From assembly GCA_028702575.1 (NCBI GenBank), contig JAQVOO010000005.1, positions 1-34,147 of the forward strand: a DNA stretch of 34,147 nucleotides, written 5' to 3'. Of this stretch, positions 24,219 through 33,804 are shown one piece after another (position 1 is the stretch's first letter; each line of letters starts with the position of its first letter). Below the pieces are notes generated by a model, which made no database searches, was not told the origin of the DNA, and worked only from the letters and a program-made list of their open reading frames with translations. A program made the translations under genes and the position numbers. This stretch comes from Sphaerochaetaceae bacterium (GTDB lineage: Bacteria; Spirochaetota; Spirochaetia; Sphaerochaetales; Sphaerochaetaceae).

Positions 24219-24917
24219 ATGAGGAGTCGCTCTCTTATCCTTAGCCTAATAGTACTTATATTAATAAGTGTTGGTTGCAGTCGTGATTCTTTTGCTATCC
24301 ATTCCACAACGTTATTACCTTCTATTGTGGCAACGCATAGTGCCGCGGTTAATTCAACCATTGCTGAAGGGCTGGCTATAGCAATTTCAGCTGACCCCCT
24401 CACAAAGGATGAAATCTATCAACTATCGATTACCTCACCTTCTGCGACCTTTGTTTGGGAGCCACTTGTTACCCCTTTTTTAGCAGCTGACAGGTGGTTT
24501 ATTGGTAGTTCAGATTTGTTGCTTCCTCCCGATACTGCTCTTGAAGTTGGCACTTATGAGGTAGAAATATTTTTACCTGATGGTCGCAGATTTGAACAAC
24601 AAGTCACGTATGATCGACCTCGTCGTATATTGCAGGAAGCTAGTTTGTTTGTGGCGTCACTAGCGCCTGTAACTTGGGAGTATGTCAATAATAGGTGGCG
24701 CCTTAATGGGTACGCTGAAGATGAGGACCAACCATGGCGCTATACATTTTACGATGCTAATCACAAGGTGCTCCATACCCAAGAGAGTGCTAGTGCCTAC
24801 CTAGAAAGTCGGGCTTTAGATGATGGAAAAATCAAAGCATTAACTACCTCTATTATTGCTTCCCGTTTTAACGATAATCAAACAATGTTATTTGTTGTAA
24901 GAACATTCTTTACATAG
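24219..24917 (+). CDS. putative lipoprotein, function unknown
   Basis: 232 residues. A signal peptide rich in Leu/Ile ends in LISVGC, a relaxed spirochaete-type lipobox with Cys20 as the acylation site. The rest is polar and looks beta-rich (for example TALEVGTYEVEIFLPDG and YTFYDANHKVLH), with no motif recognised. It follows the acyltransferase by five bases and ends overlapping the convergent mutL by eight bases. The ribosome site (CGGAT) is weak, so translation may depend on coupling. Confidence 0.7.
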   Translation: MRSRSLILSLIVLILISVGCSRDSFAIHSTTLLPSIVATHSAAVNSTIAEGLAIAISADPLTKDEIYQLSITSPSATFVWEPLVTPFLAADRWFIGSSDLLLPPDTALEVGTYEVEIFLPDGRRFEQQVTYDRPRRILQEASLFVASLAPVTWEYVNNRWRLNGYAEDEDQPWRYTFYDANHKVLHTQESASAYLESRALDDGKIKALTTSIIASRFNDNQTMLFVVRTFFT

Positions 24918-26664
24918 TTCGACCAACTGCGCGCCAAAGATGTTCCTTTGTTATCTCAACAACAAAGGTGCGTCCATGTGGGCAAACTGGATGTTCTAAC
25001 TGGAAGACTTGTTTAATTAGTGTTTCAGCTGTAATTCGGTCGATGTTATCGCCATCTTTGATTGCGCCATGACAAGCAATATTAGCATAGAGTTCTTTTT
25101 CTAATTCGCCAAGGTCGCCACTGGAGTGAGAACTGATAAATTTCACTACAGCTTGTTCTATTGGTTTCCAAAGAGCGGGTATTGAACTTAGTTCCCATTC
25201 TAAATCATCAATGCGTTTGAGTTCTAAGCCATAGTCTGCGTACCACGGAGCATGATTAGTGAGAAATTCATCTACAGAACGTTCAACTTCGAATTGGAGC
25301 GGGATGATGAGTCTTTGAATACCTTTATCTTGCCGAATTTGATCGAATAGAATCCGTTCGTGGGCAGCATGTTGGTCGATGAGATACAGAGCATCTCCTC
25401 GTTGTACGACTAAAAATAGGTTGAAAACTTGGCCAAGATAGGCAAAGTCTTCAGTTTTAGGAGTGCTGACAGAAACGGGGGTTGGTTGTTTTTCAAGAAT
25501 TTCTTTAGCCCGTTGAAACCAATCATTATCGTGTGGTTTGGCTTGGTTTTGATTGAAAAAGGATTGAGAACTAGAATTCTTCTTCCCCTGATATCCTTTA
25601 GGACTTTCAGAGGTAGCCAGATTGTGAAGCTCTGGTTGTGCAGTAGGTTGAGTTTCTAAGGAGAGGCGAGGTAGCGATTTGCTTATTTGTTGGCGGACCA
25701 TGACTACGATTTGATGGTGGATCTCCGCCTTATTGCGTAATTTAGCCTCTCGTTTGGCCGGATGTATATTGAAATCGACTAATTCAGGATCTACTGTTAC
25801 AAAGAGGTAGCAGTAGGGGAAGGCTCCCCCGGGTAGCATTTCCCTATACCCATAGGTGACCGCCTGGACTAAGGCATACTCGTCTATGAGTCTTTGATTG
25901 ACATAGATAGCTATATGGGAGCGGTCTGTGCGATAATAAGCTGGAGTTGATGCAACCGCATAGAGGCTAAAGCGACTCGCTTGGTCTCTTAATTCGGTAG
26001 TTTCCGTTGGAATGACCCGCCCATCATGGGCTAAAGTATCGAGGATTCTTTGTTTCGGTGTGGTAGCCGGTAAATCCATACGTAAGGTTTCACCGTCATA
26101 AAAGCGAAATGAAATCTCTGGGAAAGCTCTCGCTTTTTCAACCATGGTATTGCGACACATTGTCGATTCAGTGGCCGGTCGTTTTAAAAATAGGCGACGT
26201 GCTGGAATAGCGGCGAACAGATGTTCGACATCAATCCTAGTTCCCCGATCAGGGCCTCCTGGGATGATTTCAGCATCTTGGCCATTATCTATAATGAGGG
26301 TTGTAGGTTTTGATTCAGCGTGCGTGCTGGCAATGGTAATTTTGGCACTAGCGGCAATACTATACAACGCTTCACCACGAAAACCCATGGTTGAAAGGTT
26401 GAAAAGGTCTTCTAATGTAGCTATTTTACTAGTTGCATGAGAACGGCAGCATAGCGGGAGATCCTCACTTTGAATGCCAATTCCATCATCTATTACCGTA
26501 ATACGTTCTATACCACCAGAGACAACTTGTACGGTAATAGTTTTGGCTTGAGCATCAATGGCATTATCGAGTAATTCTCGTACCACAGATGCAGGTCGTT
26601 CAATGACCTCTCCGGCTGCGATGCGCTGAGCTACCAAAGGGTCTAATTGTTTAATCCTTTCCAT
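24910..26664 (-). CDS. mutL: DNA mismatch repair protein MutL
   Basis: 584 residues. MutL couples MutS mismatch recognition to strand incision. The GHKL ATPase is complete: RELLDNAIDA (29-38), IDDGIGI, ATSKI and GFRGEALYSI. A variable linker follows, then the C-terminal dimer domain. The endonuclease metal motif reads DQHAAHERILFD (430-441), with Asp441 in place of the usual final Glu. The supporting ACHGAIK and CPHGRT (561-566) motifs indicate an incising MutL, as in organisms without MutH. Its start is 13 bases past the T-tract of the giant gene's terminator, and AGG lies two bases before the ATG, so the ribosome site is poor. mutS is not in the window. Confidence 0.95.
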   Translation of the reverse strand: MERIKQLDPLVAQRIAAGEVIERPASVVRELLDNAIDAQAKTITVQVVSGGIERITVIDDGIGIQSEDLPLCCRSHATSKIATLEDLFNLSTMGFRGEALYSIAASAKITIASTHAESKPTTLIIDNGQDAEIIPGGPDRGTRIDVEHLFAAIPARRLFLKRPATESTMCRNTMVEKARAFPEISFRFYDGETLRMDLPATTPKQRILDTLAHDGRVIPTETTELRDQASRFSLYAVASTPAYYRTDRSHIAIYVNQRLIDEYALVQAVTYGYREMLPGGAFPYCYLFVTVDPELVDFNIHPAKREAKLRNKAEIHHQIVVMVRQQISKSLPRLSLETQPTAQPELHNLATSESPKGYQGKKNSSSQSFFNQNQAKPHDNDWFQRAKEILEKQPTPVSVSTPKTEDFAYLGQVFNLFLVVQRGDALYLIDQHAAHERILFDQIRQDKGIQRLIIPLQFEVERSVDEFLTNHAPWYADYGLELKRIDDLEWELSSIPALWKPIEQAVVKFISSHSSGDLGELEKELYANIACHGAIKDGDNIDRITAETLIKQVFQLEHPVCPHGRTFVVEITKEHLWRAVGRTM

Positions 26665-26729: not shown

Positions 26730-29700
26730 CTAGAAGAGATTGATATCAACTCCGAAGGTTATAGCTGGAGAACTTGTCGTTGCACTTTGTCTGTTCCAAG
26801 CACCGGCAATAGGAGTCAAATCAGCTAATGTTGAGATGGTTGCATTAAAGGTCAATGGACCTTGGCTTACCCCAACACCGGCGTGAATGACACTATCTGT
26901 TCCGCCAAGGAACGTCTTGATTCGGCTAATCACTGCTGCTGAGCCGGTTAAGAGTGTCTTCGCCGCTGGCATGAATCCACGGCGATTGTACCCCAATGAA
27001 ATATCAAATTGACCCAATTTAGCACTCCCTTTCAGCATAAGAAGATCGCTAGTGGTATTAGCCGCAAATGATGTAGAGAAGGGAAGGATATAGGAAGCTG
27101 CTAAATCAAAGTATTCGTTTCTCCAGGCACTAGAAGCCCCCACAGAGAAGGTTCTGTCAACTGGGATTTCCAGAGATCCAGGCCAAGCTGAATCAAGTGA
27201 TGCTAACACTCCATTTGCTGCAGACCGTTCACGAATGAAGAGGGGGTTGAACATCCCATACGAGAGAGCTCCCTTTTGCATTGCAACGTCCAAACCTATC
27301 ATAAAGTTCTGTGTTTCGACCTTGAGGCCACCCTGGACAAGATAGTTATTTAAACTGTTGAAGAAGGATGAGCCTGAGCTATCATAGAATAGTTGTTCAA
27401 ATCCATAGGTTCTATCATATCCCAGCATAGTGGAGAAGCTACCGTTAGTACTCATCGCAAAATGTTCTTTTTCAATAACAGGGAGAACCATATCGATGGT
27501 TGGGATGAAATCTATACGTTTAATACTATTCGTGAGCGTTAGATTTCCAAGAGCCGACAAGCCAAATTCAGCGCCATAGTTTTTAAATGGAGCAATTCCC
27601 AAGCGGAAGCCACCAAGTTGCCATTCCGCGAGGTTGTTCATAAACAAATCAACATCTACTGCCTTCGACTCGAAAGAGGCCTGTAATCCAACGGCATCCT
27701 GAAGGGTGCTGTCGGTTCGAGTTGTTAGTTCTTTGACCATGGGGCCCATTGAAACAGTTTGGTCGCGACCAATAGCAAGGGTGAAAGCATCCCCTTCTTT
27801 ACCAATGGTTAAATGATCAATAAGTGAGAACAAATCGGTCGTTATATCATAGACTTTACCAATGGTACTACCACCGTAGGAACTACTACCGAATGAGAAG
27901 GGGGCCCCATCGTGGGCATAGAGCTGCATAGCCTGTAGATCTAGCGCAACTTTTGGTCCCAGCCCGAAAGAGAAAGAATCTCCCTTAGCTAGTGTAATAA
28001 CAGGTTGCACGGTAATATGATCGTTATCTAGTCCACCAGCAAATGTTTTGGTATAAGCTGTTCGCAAATCAGCGGAGAAATCAAATTTCTTAGTTTTTAC
28101 CGTATCGCTAAAAACTTTTTCTTTAAGCGCGAGCTCTTTAGATTGTGCAAGAGCTCGTTTAGCGACAAATACTGTAGCCCCAAAATTAAAGCGTGGGGTG
28201 AACACGGTAGGTGCACCAGCTTGTGCTACTACACTTGCATCACCAAAGATACTGAACAAACCTTGTTGATAACGTAAAGCGACGTAAGGTTGGGCATTTC
28301 CTCCAGACCTTAGAAGAGCTTTGGTATTATTTACAAAACCTGAGAATCCTCCGGAGAAATCGAAGAGATTAGTAATAGCAGTTACAAAACCCACTCTGCG
28401 CAATCCCAATGCAGCTTCAAAATTGGAACCAGTATAGGTCGCCTCAATGGCGAACATATCTCCAGAGACTGCACTGTTGGTATCTAGGGGGATAATGCGA
28501 GAGAAGTTTTGTTCAATTGGAAGGTACCATGACCCTGAAAAACTAAATGTATCGCCAGTGTATCGCGCTTCTGCACCAAAGGTAAAATAGATCCCGGCGT
28601 TAGCATCAAGCATCCGTTTCCCTGAGTAGTGACTCTGGTTCAATGATCCTAAAGATAAAATTCCGTCAGCACTGTTTTGCACTGCTCCAACTAAACGATA
28701 ATTCCAGTTAAGGGTACGTAAATCGAGACCGCCGGCAGCTAAGAAATTAGGAAGTTTATTACTTAAGGAGCTACCTGAGCTGTTATAGATGGTGTTTAAA
28801 GAGAACGAATCAAGGCTGACCATAGTAGCCATATTTACAAAGGCGTCAATGCGCAATCTGCGCTCATTTTTAATTGTCCATAATAAATCAAGAGCGGGGT
28901 AGGCATTAAAGTTCTTACTTGAATTAGCACTAAGCAACGAAGATGCCCCTAACGAAATAGCAGGAGAGAAGGCGTAGGTCACCCGCATTCCACCTATTTG
29001 TTTATCCCCAGCCAGCCAATTACTAAAGTACAAGTCATCAGCAAAGAGTTCTAAACCAAACTTCCCGATGGTAGCAGAGCTATAAAGTCCAAGATGTTCT
29101 TCATAAGGACCGCTAGCAACACCAAGGTTGTTCACTAAAATTCGGTTTCCAAATGCAATGGGGGTGGTATCATCAGCTAATAGATAGAAGGCATCTCCAG
29201 CTTGTCCATACCGGATATAATCTAAAAAGCTCATGGCCGAACTTACAGTAGTAGCAATACCTGAGCCACTTCGTAAATTAAAGACATCATAGGTTGATGG
29301 AGAGAGAAGACTTCCATCGGTCAAGAAGAAGGCCTGTAAACCCATTGCAAAGGCGTTGTGATTAAAGAATGGATTTATAGAAAGACCAAGTTTAGGAGTT
29401 TGACCACTGGCAAAACTATCACGGGATACGGTCAGAGTTGCCGAGAGGCCCCAATCAAAACTATCCGCAGGAGCTTCAGACACACTCGCTGTGATGCCTA
29501 GAGGTTGTTTAATAGCTAAGGGACTTTCTGTGATTGTTTGGGCTGGGACATCTTCAGCTACAAGAATTTCTTCAGGGGTAGGTTCGCCTTCGACCACTAC
29601 AGGCGTTTCTACAATATCTGCTGGTTCTGTAACTTCTAAAGCGGGTTCCTTTGCGATATCTGCTGGCTCTGTGACTTCTAAAGCGGGTTCCTTTGCGACG

Positions 29701-31673
29701 AGTGTCTCAGTTACAACTGGAACAATTTGCTGGGCAGCATAGCGTGCCTTTTGTTTTTCTATAAAGGTTACAACGTCGGAGTCGAGAGGTACGTGGGTAA
29801 TTCCAAAAGATTTTGCCAGAGCACTCTTATTGGGGTTATTTATATCTTCTACACTGATTCTGGCAGTGTCTAAAGTAACGGCTTCACCATCTACCACATG
29901 AATAGCTACTACTCCAACACTTTGTAGTCTTGCATTAGCATTTACAATTAAAGTAGATCCCACGAGTTTACCTCTAGCAGGAGTTTGAGTTGCTTCACCA
30001 TCAATAATAAGATCAATCCCGGAAATTGCTTGAGCAATGTCAGTACTAGTTATACCAGCTGGAGCACCTGAGGTATTACCTAGTAAAATAACAAAATCAG
30101 ATTGAGAAGCAACTTCGTCAACTAAATTTTGTGCTTGTGCAATAATTGTCTCATTAAGATAACTAATGCCACTGACGTCTTTGGGGGGAACACTTATGCC
30201 AATAACTCCGATGGTATATCCCTCAAGATCAAAAATTCCGTACGGGTCAAATAAGAACTCACCTTGGGAATCGAGGATGTTTGCAGCTAATATTTTTACT
30301 TGGGAAAATTGGGTCGCCATGTTGGCAGCTTCTTGTAAGCGCTCGATGCCATAGGCATAATCAGCTGGTCCGGGAGCAATAGCATTATAGCCAAGCATAT
30401 CGAGTAATACTGCGACAGTTTCTCCCTTAAAAGCTTCTGCAAGGGGTGTCCCACTAGTAGTATTACCAGCATCAAGTAATAAATTACGATCAGAAACACT
30501 TCGTCCCCAATCAAGGAGTGTTGCTAAACGAGCATAACCAATCCCTTCATCTTCAATTTGTCCCAACACGTCATTTGTGTGGACAACATAAACATCAAAA
30601 ACTTCTTGTTCAGCTACTAGCTCTGCAGGAGCAACTACTTCAGGAGTCTCTTCAACTACTACAGGAGCAACTACTTCAGGAGTCTCTTCAACTACTACAG
30701 GAGCAATTACTTCAGGAGTCTCTTCAACTACTACAGGAGCAACTACTTCAGGAGTCTCTTCTACTACTACAGGAGCAATTACTTCAGGAGTCTCTTCTAC
30801 TACTACAGGAGCAATTACTTCAGGAGTCTCTTCTACTACTACAGGAGCTGCTACTTTAGGAGTCTCTTTAACTACAGGAGCTACTACTTTAGGAGTCTCT
30901 TTTACCACAGCCGGAGTGGGTTTTTGTGGAGTGACAACCTTTTCAGTCTCTACTTTTTGTGCTTTGAATAGAGGTTCTGGATTTTGGAAGGTGATTCCGT
31001 CTTGCACTTTTACACTGGGTAATATTCTAGTTGTGGTCTTCTTAGGATTAATCGAGAGTGTTTCATAGGTCTCTCTTGAAAGTTCTTTTGTGTTTACAAA
31101 TGGGTCCGCGAGGTTAAGATAGGTAAATTCAGGTAGGTCGGTAATTTGGCGTGTAATTGCATTCATGACACGAATTTTACCACCTAGTGAGAACACAATT
31201 TCAGCATAATCGGAGGAGATGAACATCTCTCCATGACCTTGGAGTGTATAAATCCCTACTGGTGTTGAAACCTCTAATTTGCCTAAAAATGGGGTATCCA
31301 TTAAAAAAGAGGCCGAACCGGCAATCAGATAATAGGAAGGTTTGTTCACAGTGGTTGAGCCAATCGTGAGAATAGATTCTCGTTGCAATACAATCGTAGT
31401 ATTAGGTCCTTTGATAGTAACAGGCTCTTGCCCTGAGAGAACAATCCACCCCTCTTTAAGAGCAGTCACAGTCGATGTTGGAGCAACGTATACCCCTTTT
31501 GCATCAAACTGGAAGTAATCTGAGTTTATGTCGTTAGCAACATAAAGAAATTGAGGAGTCGAAGCCTCAGTCGTAGGTAAAATTGCAGCCGATACTGTAA
31601 ACAGCATCACCAACATTGTCATTGCTACTAAAAATATCACTTTTTTCACGTGCGTTAACCTCTTCATTTTCAT
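26730..31673 (-). CDS. giant chimeric outer-membrane protein (FecR-like, Pro/Glu repeats, 5'-nucleotidase-like, two beta domains)
   Basis: 1647 residues. In order: signal peptide (about 1-37); FecR-like beta domain (about 60-190, with VSTPVGIYTLQGHGEMFI); Pro/Glu tandem repeat (257-349) based on APVVVEETPEV; a 5'-nucleotidase/metallophosphatase-like domain (about 358-650); a second linker with a duplicated KEPALEVTEPADI (661-687); and a beta-rich C-terminal region (740-1647) ending in Phe. That region is two diverged copies: GDAF (826/1294), YNSSGSS and YDSSGSS (963/1430), SWYLP and SYILP, LRRVGF and YNRRGF. The nucleotidase motifs are eroded (see findings), so binding rather than catalysis is likely. 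A GTG at 31649 preceded by AAGAGG is an alternative start giving MKKVIFLVAM. Probably exported and inserted in the outer membrane; function unknown. Confidence 0.9.
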   Translation of the reverse strand: MKMKRLTHVKKVIFLVAMTMLVMLFTVSAAILPTTEASTPQFLYVANDINSDYFQFDAKGVYVAPTSTVTALKEGWIVLSGQEPVTIKGPNTTIVLQRESILTIGSTTVNKPSYYLIAGSASFLMDTPFLGKLEVSTPVGIYTLQGHGEMFISSDYAEIVFSLGGKIRVMNAITRQITDLPEFTYLNLADPFVNTKELSRETYETLSINPKKTTTRILPSVKVQDGITFQNPEPLFKAQKVETEKVVTPQKPTPAVVKETPKVVAPVVKETPKVAAPVVVEETPEVIAPVVVEETPEVIAPVVVEETPEVVAPVVVEETPEVIAPVVVEETPEVVAPVVVEETPEVVAPAELVAEQEVFDVYVVHTNDVLGQIEDEGIGYARLATLLDWGRSVSDRNLLLDAGNTTSGTPLAEAFKGETVAVLLDMLGYNAIAPGPADYAYGIERLQEAANMATQFSQVKILAANILDSQGEFLFDPYGIFDLEGYTIGVIGISVPPKDVSGISYLNETIIAQAQNLVDEVASQSDFVILLGNTSGAPAGITSTDIAQAISGIDLIIDGEATQTPARGKLVGSTLIVNANARLQSVGVVAIHVVDGEAVTLDTARISVEDINNPNKSALAKSFGITHVPLDSDVVTFIEKQKARYAAQQIVPVVTETLVAKEPALEVTEPADIAKEPALEVTEPADIVETPVVVEGEPTPEEILVAEDVPAQTITESPLAIKQPLGITASVSEAPADSFDWGLSATLTVSRDSFASGQTPKLGLSINPFFNHNAFAMGLQAFFLTDGSLLSPSTYDVFNLRSGSGIATTVSSAMSFLDYIRYGQAGDAFYLLADDTTPIAFGNRILVNNLGVASGPYEEHLGLYSSATIGKFGLELFADDLYFSNWLAGDKQIGGMRVTYAFSPAISLGASSLLSANSSKNFNAYPALDLLWTIKNERRLRIDAFVNMATMVSLDSFSLNTIYNSSGSSLSNKLPNFLAAGGLDLRTLNWNYRLVGAVQNSADGILSLGSLNQSHYSGKRMLDANAGIYFTFGAEARYTGDTFSFSGSWYLPIEQNFSRIIPLDTNSAVSGDMFAIEATYTGSNFEAALGLRRVGFVTAITNLFDFSGGFSGFVNNTKALLRSGGNAQPYVALRYQQGLFSIFGDASVVAQAGAPTVFTPRFNFGATVFVAKRALAQSKELALKEKVFSDTVKTKKFDFSADLRTAYTKTFAGGLDNDHITVQPVITLAKGDSFSFGLGPKVALDLQAMQLYAHDGAPFSFGSSSYGGSTIGKVYDITTDLFSLIDHLTIGKEGDAFTLAIGRDQTVSMGPMVKELTTRTDSTLQDAVGLQASFESKAVDVDLFMNNLAEWQLGGFRLGIAPFKNYGAEFGLSALGNLTLTNSIKRIDFIPTIDMVLPVIEKEHFAMSTNGSFSTMLGYDRTYGFEQLFYDSSGSSFFNSLNNYLVQGGLKVETQNFMIGLDVAMQKGALSYGMFNPLFIRERSAANGVLASLDSAWPGSLEIPVDRTFSVGASSAWRNEYFDLAASYILPFSTSFAANTTSDLLMLKGSAKLGQFDISLGYNRRGFMPAAKTLLTGSAAVISRIKTFLGGTDSVIHAGVGVSQGPLTFNATISTLADLTPIAGAWNRQSATTSSPAITFGVDINLF
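29617..29700. repeat. two 42-bp direct repeats in the second linker
   Basis: Two adjacent 42-base units (29617-29658 and 29659-29700) differ at only a few positions. They encode the duplicated ALEVTEPADI-type linker of the giant protein on the minus strand, and keep the frame. Confidence 0.9.
30625..30909. repeat. 36-bp tandem repeat array (six full, two decayed units)
   Basis: Six 36-base units start at 30625, 30661, 30697, 30733, 30769 and 30805. Each encodes twelve residues (VVVEETPE, V, V or I, AP) on the minus strand. Units vary at a C/T that switches Val and Ile, and at a second C/A-to-T position. Two shorter, more diverged units follow at 30841 and 30874. All keep the reading frame, as expected of a copy-number-variable linker. 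Confidence 0.95.
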
Positions 31674-31682
31674 AACTATACA

Positions 31683-32516
31683 TTACTCTAAATCATGATG
31701 GACCGCAACTGTGTTTGCGAGATCTGGTAGGGTAGAAACAGGATTTTTTCGCGGTATTTCGTACGAAAATTGATGAGAATGATAGATATGTTCACGAACA
31801 TCTCGATCAATGTGAGCTAAATCGCGTACGATAGGCTTTAATCGAGCCCGTATATTAGTCTTATCATAGGGGCATTTAGGTTTCACTGCCGGTAAATTAT
31901 AGGTATCGGCTAGTTTTTGAATTGTTGTTTCATGTACTTCTATCATGGGTCGAATAACATGAATCTTCCCTTTGAAAAATTCTTGGACTGGAAGCATGGT
32001 CTCAAACTTTGCCCGACTCGTTAGATTTAAAAGGGTCGTTTCGACTAAATCATCCAAATGATGCCCCATGGCAATCAGTTTATATCCATGTTCTGCAGCA
32101 TATGTAAAGAGGATTCTACGCCTGTTTCGAGAACAAAGATAACAATTAAATTCACCTTTAAAGCTATCTGGGTATTGTTTTTCATCTAAAATAAGCAATG
32201 GGATTTGCAGAGCCCCAAAAAATTCCTCAATGCAAAGCCGATCTTCAATTTCTATGGGATGTTCAATCCAATTAATCATGACTGCTTGCAATGAATAAGA
32301 GATTGGTAGCCACTGTAAGCGGATCGAGAGGGCAAGAGCGAGAGCCAGCGAGTCTTTGCCTCCCGAGACACTGAGCAAGACAGCATCATTATCTCGAATC
32401 ATCGCATGCCGGTTAATACCTTTGCCCGTGAGCTTAATGAACCGCCTAACCCAAGGAGGAATAGGGGCTGAGAGTAACTCGCGCCATTTTTGTGGAGGAT
32501 GTTGTAGGCTATGCAT
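31683..32516 (-). CDS. ttcA: TtcA-like tRNA 2-thiocytidine synthase
   Basis: 277 residues. PP-loop ATPase SGGKDS (51-56) with Cys125 and Cys128 in CYLCSRNRR and a third Cys215 in PKCPYD, the three-cysteine pattern that holds the Fe-S cluster of TtcA. The GHHLDDLVET segment (151-160) is the family's second ATP motif. TtcA thiolates cytidine 32 in the tRNA anticodon loop. The related TilS lacks these cysteines, so TtcA is preferred. The gene overlaps the upstream HD gene by eight bases and is nine bases from the giant protein gene, indicating one transcript. Confidence 0.88.
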   Translation of the reverse strand: MHSLQHPPQKWRELLSAPIPPWVRRFIKLTGKGINRHAMIRDNDAVLLSVSGGKDSLALALALSIRLQWLPISYSLQAVMINWIEHPIEIEDRLCIEEFFGALQIPLLILDEKQYPDSFKGEFNCYLCSRNRRRILFTYAAEHGYKLIAMGHHLDDLVETTLLNLTSRAKFETMLPVQEFFKGKIHVIRPMIEVHETTIQKLADTYNLPAVKPKCPYDKTNIRARLKPIVRDLAHIDRDVREHIYHSHQFSYEIPRKNPVSTLPDLANTVAVHHDLE

Positions 32517-33804
32517 GCTCGTTTAATCCTTCTTTGAGCACCTTTTCTGCAATTGAAGAAGAGATGTAATCAGGTAGAAATAACCGTAATTTCCTTAAAC
32601 TAGTAGTAAAAGCTCGAACTAAAGGTGGAGTAAATAATTCATCTACTGATGCGAAATCTTTCAACGTGTTATGTTCAAGTAGGATAGGGATATCAGATTC
32701 AAAAGAGATATCCTCTGGAATATCGATTATCACTTCACATGAGTTCAATTTAGGATATGAGCGAACTAGTTCTTCGTACACAGACTGTTCCACCAGAGCA
32801 CGACTTTCTTGATTTGTAAAAAGATTACGGCAGTGCTCAGTTTGGGTTAAGGAGAGGGTAGCTTTTGTTTGTAGCAAATCGTTATTGCGTACTTTTTTTA
32901 CAAGCTCTACCACCTCGAGATCTTGCATATGTGAAAAAAGTGTCCAAAAAGATTCATCATCTAAATTGAATAGATCTGTTTCATGACAGATTTCTTTTTG
33001 AAGCGCAAGTCGGACTGCTTTTTTAATCATAGCAGTGGCACTGCGGGTCACCCGATGCCAATATACATTACGATACATCGAGTATTTTGCAAAAAGAAGA
33101 TGTTCTACCGCGCCAATAGCTTCTAAAGGGATACAAAGGGTTTGTCCTTGATGCACAGATAAGTGACGAATTATGTAGGAAGCATCTTGCATGCCATAAG
33201 GGATGCCACAGAACAAAGCATCCCGACTAAGATAATCGAGTTTGTCAGGGTCCATGGTTCCCGATAATATAGTGCGATAAAAAAAGATTTCAGCATCGTC
33301 ACATGGTAAAGCTGGATCAATAATCTGGCAAACAGCCTCAACAGAAGTTCCTAATTGGTCGGTTATGATATGACCTAAACTCTTATCTTCAGCTATAATT
33401 TCAGCCCCTAACACCTCATGTTCTCGACTTATATTATCTTTGAGAGCATGGGCATAAGGGAAATGACCCACATCGTGTAACATAGCTGCTGCTAAGAGTG
33501 CCTGAATCCCTTCCTGGCTCAGAAGTGGATGAGAGTGCTCCCCAGTAAGGAGTGCTAGCACAATTAAACGAGTTGCATGGAACACTCCTAGGCTATGGTC
33601 CAAACGGGTATGGACAGCTCCTGGATATAACAAATGAACTGGACCCAATTGTTTAATTCGCCCAAGTTTCTGAAGAGATTCACTAGTAAATAATCGTTTA
33701 AATCCTTTAGATAGCGGAATATCTCTCCATAGCGGATCTCTTACTGTTTGTGTAAAATCGCCTATGAGACGGGCAATTTGATTCTTCACAAAATTGTTTT
33801 TCAT
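32509..33804 (-). CDS. HD-domain phosphohydrolase (COG1078/dGTPase-like)
   Basis: 431 residues. Metal-binding HD motifs are present: TRLDHSLG (His70), AAMLHDVGHFPYAH (His110, Asp111), an EHE at 128-130 and GTMDPDKLDYLSRD (181-194). This arrangement belongs to the SAMHD1/dGTPase-like HD superfamily. Members hydrolyse dNTPs or other nucleotides; the precise substrate is unknown. The C-terminal part (about 290-431) has few recognised motifs. It is the first gene of the HD-ttcA-giant protein operon. The ribosome site at the ATG is poor (GGGGCA directly before it). Confidence 0.85.
   Translation of the reverse strand: MKNNFVKNQIARLIGDFTQTVRDPLWRDIPLSKGFKRLFTSESLQKLGRIKQLGPVHLLYPGAVHTRLDHSLGVFHATRLIVLALLTGEHSHPLLSQEGIQALLAAAMLHDVGHFPYAHALKDNISREHEVLGAEIIAEDKSLGHIITDQLGTSVEAVCQIIDPALPCDDAEIFFYRTILSGTMDPDKLDYLSRDALFCGIPYGMQDASYIIRHLSVHQGQTLCIPLEAIGAVEHLLFAKYSMYRNVYWHRVTRSATAMIKKAVRLALQKEICHETDLFNLDDESFWTLFSHMQDLEVVELVKKVRNNDLLQTKATLSLTQTEHCRNLFTNQESRALVEQSVYEELVRSYPKLNSCEVIIDIPEDISFESDIPILLEHNTLKDFASVDELFTPPLVRAFTTSLRKLRLFLPDYISSSIAEKVLKEGLNEHA

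Follow-up and report, generated by a model that had tools for sequence, protein, structure and literature searches.

The window, as we call the whole stretch of 34,147 nucleotides analysed here, encodes on its reverse strand a 1647-residue protein in a single reading frame. Its N terminus resembles a signal peptide. Next come a FecR-like domain and a Pro-rich linker, then a 5'-nucleotidase-like domain and another linker, and last two copies of a barrel domain. The gene, its parts and its neighbours are as follows:

26730..31673 (-), whole gene, 1647 aa, single reading frame
31560..31673 (-), signal-peptide-like N terminus, residues 1-38, read from the sequence by eye
31059..31559 (-), FecR-like periplasmic domain, residues ~39-205, from phmmer matches to the N termini of syntenic relatives
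30633..30881 (-), Pro-rich linker with 12-residue APVVVEETPEV repeats, residues 265-347, from a pattern scan
29724..30608 (-), 5'-nucleotidase-like metallophosphatase domain without metal ligands, residues ~356-650, from NCBIfam (below cut-off), PDB 5'-nucleotidases and alignment with a paralogue
28161..29459 (-), barrel copy 1, residues 739-1171, from alignment, tree and predicted structure
28083..28160 (-), inter-barrel linker, residues 1172-1197, partly helical and of low pLDDT, from model and sequence
26733..28082 (-), barrel copy 2, residues 1198-1647, C-terminal end ..TFGVDINLF, from alignment, tree and predicted structure
24910..26664 (-), mutL, a neighbour of the barrel gene also in relatives, from locus comparison
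31683..32516 (-), tilS-like PP-loop gene, upstream neighbour, from locus comparison
32509..33804 (-), HD-domain gene, upstream neighbour, from locus comparison

The unit of tilS, barrel and mutL shows synteny across the class. In the window's family, HD gene, tilS, barrel gene(s), mutL and acyltransferase follow one another in this order; the arrangement is partly conserved in other families, where a gene for a FecR domain and a single barrel adjoins mutL (L048-L052). In one of these, mutL is present as two abutting ORFs of 326 and 267 aa (L050:1582-3365).

Pfam gives no match to the window protein at E 0.1, FecR (PF04773) included, and we call its N-terminal domain only FecR-like because the protein itself falls below the Pfam FecR cut-off. 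The assignment is drawn through syntenic relatives, two of which pass the gathering cut-off of 24 (L048, 36.8 bits; L050, 40.1 bits) and a third of which fails it (L045, 15.9 bits). Like these barrel relatives, the spirochaete FecR-type proteins LipL45 and Lsa33 have an N-terminal FecR-type domain; to our knowledge, their families have no barrel. Two single-barrel relatives match LipL45/Lsa33-type NCBIfam models below the cut-off, and the window protein has no such match. The linker at 30633-30881 consists of six near-identical repeats of 12 residues (APVVVEETPEV), and other linkers in the family have different Pro-rich repeats.

The middle domain is homologous to 5'-nucleotidases such as UshA and CD73, with matches to PDB 5'-nucleotidases down to 4e-10 and a score of 76 bits against NCBIfam NF041198 (cut-off 275). 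Unlike these enzymes, the window protein has no Pfam match to the 5'-nucleotidase C-terminal substrate domain, and its metal-binding residues are replaced. An intact paralogue, L062 of this genome, has TNDVHG, DAGD, GNHD, LLGH and DGHSH at the positions where the window has TNDVLG, DAGN, GPAD, LLGN and DGEAT; we take DxH, GD, GNHD/E, GH and GHxH to be the metal-ligand positions of metallophosphatases. At the paralogous locus (L062:4278-8251), the intact copy carries the C-terminal domain of 5'-nucleotidases, and beside it lie two more copies that are as degenerate as the window's; because of these, the dead form of the phosphatase may have existed before it joined the barrel gene. A phosphatase-like domain with a degenerate GPxDF motif also occurs in a single-barrel chain accompanied by a stand-alone barrel gene (L104:11659-14826). 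Given this chain, the domain may have arisen before the window clade.

A sequence-only reading of 26730-29460 had claimed an ancient tandem duplication, with eight landmarks in the same order in both copies at offsets of 467-479 residues. All eight are where it placed them: YGQAGDAF at 822 and GKEGDAF at 1291 (+469), YNSSGSS at 963 and YDSSGSS at 1430 (+467), GSWYLP at 1047 and ASYILP at 1526 (+479), and LGLRRVGF at 1089 and LGYNRRGF at 1560 (+471). Its coordinates agree with the extent of the two copies. It also had each copy end in a strand, the last in Phe, and the terminal strand pattern is indeed common to both (..TPRFNFGATVFV / ..SPAITFGVDINLF), with Phe as the final residue of the protein. 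Comparison of the halves with shuffled sequence, which it had proposed as a check, gives a Smith-Waterman score of 227 for residues 740-1190 against 1191-1647, versus a maximum of 99 (mean 44.8, s.d. 7.0) in 1000 shuffles. When residues are shuffled within ten-residue windows, the maximum of 1000 trials is 91, none reaching 227, and the reversed copy scores 49. Chance or generic barrel similarity between the halves is ruled out by the shuffle scores.

The optimal alignment joins residues 752-1168 with 1232-1644 over 373 pairs at 29% identity, and BLASTP of copy against copy gives E = 8e-17 (25% across 341 columns). With phmmer, each copy as query recovers the other (7e-12 and 2e-12). Sequence comparison thus confirms that the tandem repeat in the protein encoded at 26730-31673 (-) is real. 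The repeat is worn elsewhere in the family; in 7 of 23 double chains the copy-copy score is not above 60 shuffles.

Relatives of the barrel are widespread: a 45-row profile matches 121 of 392 sampled Spirochaetota genomes. Despite this spread, searches with 45 members against Pfam, NCBIfam and PDB sequence profiles assign the barrel to no family. Pfam matches of two single members (E 0.003-0.009) were taken as chance, the PDB profile search of the barrel has one match at E 0.41, and against NCBIfam the barrel part of L050 weakly matches ImpL63, far under the cut-off. A single-sequence scan of genome contigs found no relative; the barrel genes of relatives were read from the flanks of matches to the conserved acyltransferase neighbour in an alignment scan. 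These loci and the G-labelled loci come partly from the same genomes. One 1232-residue open frame (G121) was considered as a further double chain and set aside, as it holds one barrel only and its upstream stretch is an unrelated frame that overlaps.

Structure prediction of the whole and of a half, which the sequence-only reading had also proposed, gives folds that agree between the halves. An AlphaFold2 joint model of residues 720-1647 (17 alignment rows; mean pLDDT 79.7, pTM 0.64) has long strands and helices in identical order in both copies. Of the aligned pairs, 82% have matching secondary structure, versus a mean of 42% when one copy is slid by 5-60 residues. Copy 2 modelled alone with 45 rows reaches a pLDDT of 90.7 and a pTM of 0.88. 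With VIA-align 2, both copies rank the OprD/Occ porin OccK3 (3szv) first (copy 1: Z 15.4, 301 of 364 aligned, rmsd 6.3; copy 2: Z 14.9, 296 of 364, rmsd 6.4). The match of the copies to the 18-strand porin fold has a Z of about 15 but an rmsd of about 6 A and no sequence relation. OprD/Occ porins are of similar size but are single barrels, share about 7-10% identity with the copies and are not matched by them in PDB sequence profiles. Based on these models, each copy looks like a complete barrel of ~18 strands, with closure and strand number predicted; the DSSP strings have about 19 strand segments per copy, so that 18 is approximate. Foldseek with the joint model returns LptD chains as top matches, which we dismissed as support for one large barrel since TM-scores are <=0.2 and rmsd is >22 A.

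The sequence-only reading had left open two barrels in series or one fused barrel. A single barrel of about 36 strands built from both copies would fit with the lack of a stop or long linker between them (about 26 residues) and with a joint-model pTM of only 0.64. However, copy 2 alone is predicted as a confident, complete domain, closed barrels match either copy from one end to the other and the terminal strand motif is present in each. In addition, there are single-copy relatives and an orthologue with copy 1 only, which stops directly after that copy (L038). A fused barrel is therefore very improbable, and two separate barrels are favoured. The words 'in series' are misleading, as barrels that share a membrane would sit next to each other; their relative placement is not given by the model, its joint pTM being only 0.64.

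The locus takes several forms among relatives (B1 and B2 denote the barrel copies and S a stand-alone barrel gene between tilS and the FecR-barrel gene). The chain FecR-phosphatase-B1-B2 is found complete in the window, L066, L067 and L068, and cut at a contig edge in L065, L069 and L107. The window contig belongs to a genome in 265 contigs, which could raise the suspicion of a metagenome assembly artefact, but the same chain in these independent assemblies makes that hardly conceivable. FecR-B1-B2 with S is present in L070, L091 and L105, and FecR-B-B without S in L082, L083, L085, L087, L090, L092 and L098. In L094, L097, L101, L102, L103 and L115, a FecR gene is followed by a double-barrel ORF. 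A FecR-single-barrel gene occurs with S in L071, L077, L079, L081, L086, L088, L089, L099 and L104, and a single barrel without S in L095, L096 and L100. The contig ends inside the gene in L065, L069, L107, L082, L087 and L098, where S at the locus is outside view.

Other loci are without a recognised barrel (for example L072-L075, L093, L112, L113 and L121). In the gut relatives L072-L075 the barrel is gone, and there is little but a FecR-like ORF between mutL and tilS; the remnant was read in L072 only (~265 aa, L072:10293-11090). An S profile run on 37 genomes finds no separate S in six window-clade genomes (G000, G002, G004, G014, G016 and G020), four of which match only in their own barrel gene and two not at all. 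The copy-1-only orthologue (L038:2328-5591) has 1087 aa and ends 36 bases before mutL; the S profile search found no S gene in its genome.

To place the copies, we used a tree of 76 barrel domains and 417 columns, with copy 1 trimmed at alignment column 520, short of where its last strand ends. Window-clade rows under G labels only (L038, L039, L041, L042 and others) were left out, as were L076, L080, L109-L111, L114 and L122, which have no, a partial or an unplaced barrel match. Within the window clade, copy-1 rows form one clade (100/100) and copy-2 rows another (100/99). The copy-1 rows of the window and gut clades group with L070 and 11 single-barrel rows at 100/97, and the copy-2 rows of the window and gut clades with L070 at 86/85, a moderate support. 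On this tree, the duplication dates from before the split of the window's clade, the gut sister clades and Sphaerochaeta. 'Ancient' is thus a fitting word, the orthologous copy-1 and copy-2 clades being common to several genera.

The S gene offers another source for the second barrel. It is a homologous barrel at the same locus, and shared-duplication doubles mostly lack it, as would be the case had S been fused to the FecR-barrel gene without any internal duplication. Yet the S rows, 12 in all, group as a single clade (100/99) to which neither copy 1 nor copy 2 belongs, L070 holds both copies as well as S, and the gene order (S, then FecR-barrel) is incompatible with FecR-B1-B2. We regard such a fusion as very unlikely and retain an internal tandem duplication.

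Single-copy relatives, for which the sequence-only reading had advised a search, do exist, yet those in Sphaerochaeta are losses. In AU tests, which were selected after inspection of the tree, holding the double chains together without the Sphaerochaeta-type singles is rejected (p-AU 0.0002). This rules out the Sphaerochaeta singles as the ancestral state, and because of it we read these chains as copy 1 with copy 2 lost. A single clade for all copy-2 rows including L091/L105 is also rejected (p-AU 0.0007; 0.003 for the corresponding copy-1 set), and with it one origin for all double chains, while a separate duplication in L091/L105 is not (p-AU 0.368). In L091/L105, copy scored against copy gives 573 and 469, and either of them against any window copy <=303. 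Together, the AU tests and these scores indicate two or more tandem duplications of the barrel. These results would also suit a duplicated state that arose separately in each lineage, but the copies of the window clade, the gut clades and L070 sort by position, not by genome, and so general an independence is very unlikely. The preferred history remains one shared duplication, with a further one in L091/L105.

Fourteen loci with the shared duplication have tilS in view (the window, L066, L067, L068, L070, L085, L090, L092, L094, L097, L101, L102, L103 and L115), and only L070 among them keeps S, versus 9 of 12 single-copy loci (L071, L077, L079, L081, L086, L088, L089, L095, L096, L099, L100 and L104). 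This difference suggests a tendency of the locus to hold two barrels, though few evolutionary events lie behind the pattern.

Taken together, it is probable that the window encodes an exported outer-membrane protein with two separately closed ~18-strand barrels, derived from one tandem duplication, behind a FecR-like domain. The homology of the copies, their duplication and its age, the later losses, the loss of metal ligands and the common fold come from the comparisons above; the two closed barrels are predicted. The protein would be exported by Sec, and each barrel would fold into the outer membrane separately by its own C-terminal signal. The result could be a covalent pair of pores, side by side in a fixed 1:1 ratio. 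The FecR-like domain, Pro-rich linker and dead phosphatase may form a periplasmic stalk or binding module. That the protein functions as a paired pore on such a stalk is a tentative proposal, which we hold to be rather doubtful.

Solan et al. (PNAS 2021) reportedly describe multi-barrel outer-membrane proteins as a class. Based on structure prediction, the window protein would be a member. Like other such proteins, it has more than one complete barrel per chain, by prediction only in its case, and is lineage-specific. The sequence-only reading's phrase 'rare for a single chain' is fair, though these chains are a recognised class. In GfcD of E. coli, according to PMC11494523, which cites Solan et al. 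2021 on multi-barrel chains, barrels of 12 and 13 strands are separated by a periplasmic middle domain. Unlike GfcD as described there, the window protein has two ~18-strand copies of one barrel, a short linker and an N terminus with FecR-like and dead-phosphatase domains. It is set apart from the known class by having a single large barrel in two copies, by its N-terminal modules and by a locus at which gain, re-gain and loss can be traced. Few chains have two large barrels, and here duplication, re-duplication, copy loss and loss of the whole barrel are readable at one syntenic locus. The single- and double-copy homologues allow a direct comparison of folding and pore function.

The window gene is in one frame. 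In some sister genomes, FecR and the double barrel lie in separate ORFs, and we examined 19 such junctions from 15 distinct loci (including L144:3758, L145:3757, L150:3778 and L151:3804 on the + strand, plus 11 further loci). In all 15, the barrel ORF is in the -1 frame with a slippery heptamer inside the overlap, which is only 13 nt long in L144, L101, L152 and L156. The site is exactly nine A followed by C (A9-C) in 12 loci and CCCTTTC in 3. Across the split loci, in-frame slippery heptamers occupy 234 of 56,770 codon positions, and the only coding-strand runs of >=9 A in the 15 loci (138,702 bases) are 12, all at junction sites. Runs of >=7 A are absent from the ORFs of the five in-frame relatives tested. 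The barrel ORFs have no signal peptide in the starts read, and the first possible barrel-frame start codon in L101 lies 312 nt past the slip site, within the barrel, so that a barrel translated from a start of its own would be truncated. With all 12 A runs exactly 9 long and every shift towards -1, sequencing error or phase variation is an unlikely source of the frameshift. Stem-loops downstream of the site were dropped as a general stimulator, being strong in only 2 of 15 loci (L155, z -6.5; L145, z -2.6).

Both A9-C and CCCTTTC are covered by the motifs V_VV.A_AA.R and H_HH.U_UU.Y, which are among the efficient E. coli frameshift motifs in PMC4066793. Runs of >7 A may also work through transcriptional slippage, according to PMC3711429. 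The words 'fecr' and 'outer membrane' have 0 occurrences in the main text of the latter, and 'outer membrane' has 0 in 300,000 characters of PMC5009743, counts that do not imply absence from print. The conserved -1 slip site leads us to expect programmed frameshifting or slippage during transcription in the sister loci. The fused FecR-double-barrel protein of these bacteria appears to be made only upon a one-base slip of ribosome or polymerase. If true, recoding would set the attachment of an outer-membrane barrel to a periplasmic domain.

We lean slightly towards a wider reading, in which the double barrel serves as a two-pore module that is quickly remodelled and that the locus reaches by several routes (two genes S and F, a B1-B2 chain and independent re-duplication). 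In at least 15 sister genomes, the FecR fusion would form only via the conserved -1 slip at A9-C or CCCTTTC, and one mRNA would yield a soluble periplasmic FecR and a membrane-anchored FecR-double-barrel in a set ratio. The 15 frameshift loci are not 15 independent events, because the tree needs only one or two origins (2 changes); they include close pairs (L153/L158, 94%; L144/L101, 89%). One clade for the frameshift state is not rejected (p-AU 0.316), in a test that counted among the in-frame chains two in which only one barrel is recognised (L096 and L163).
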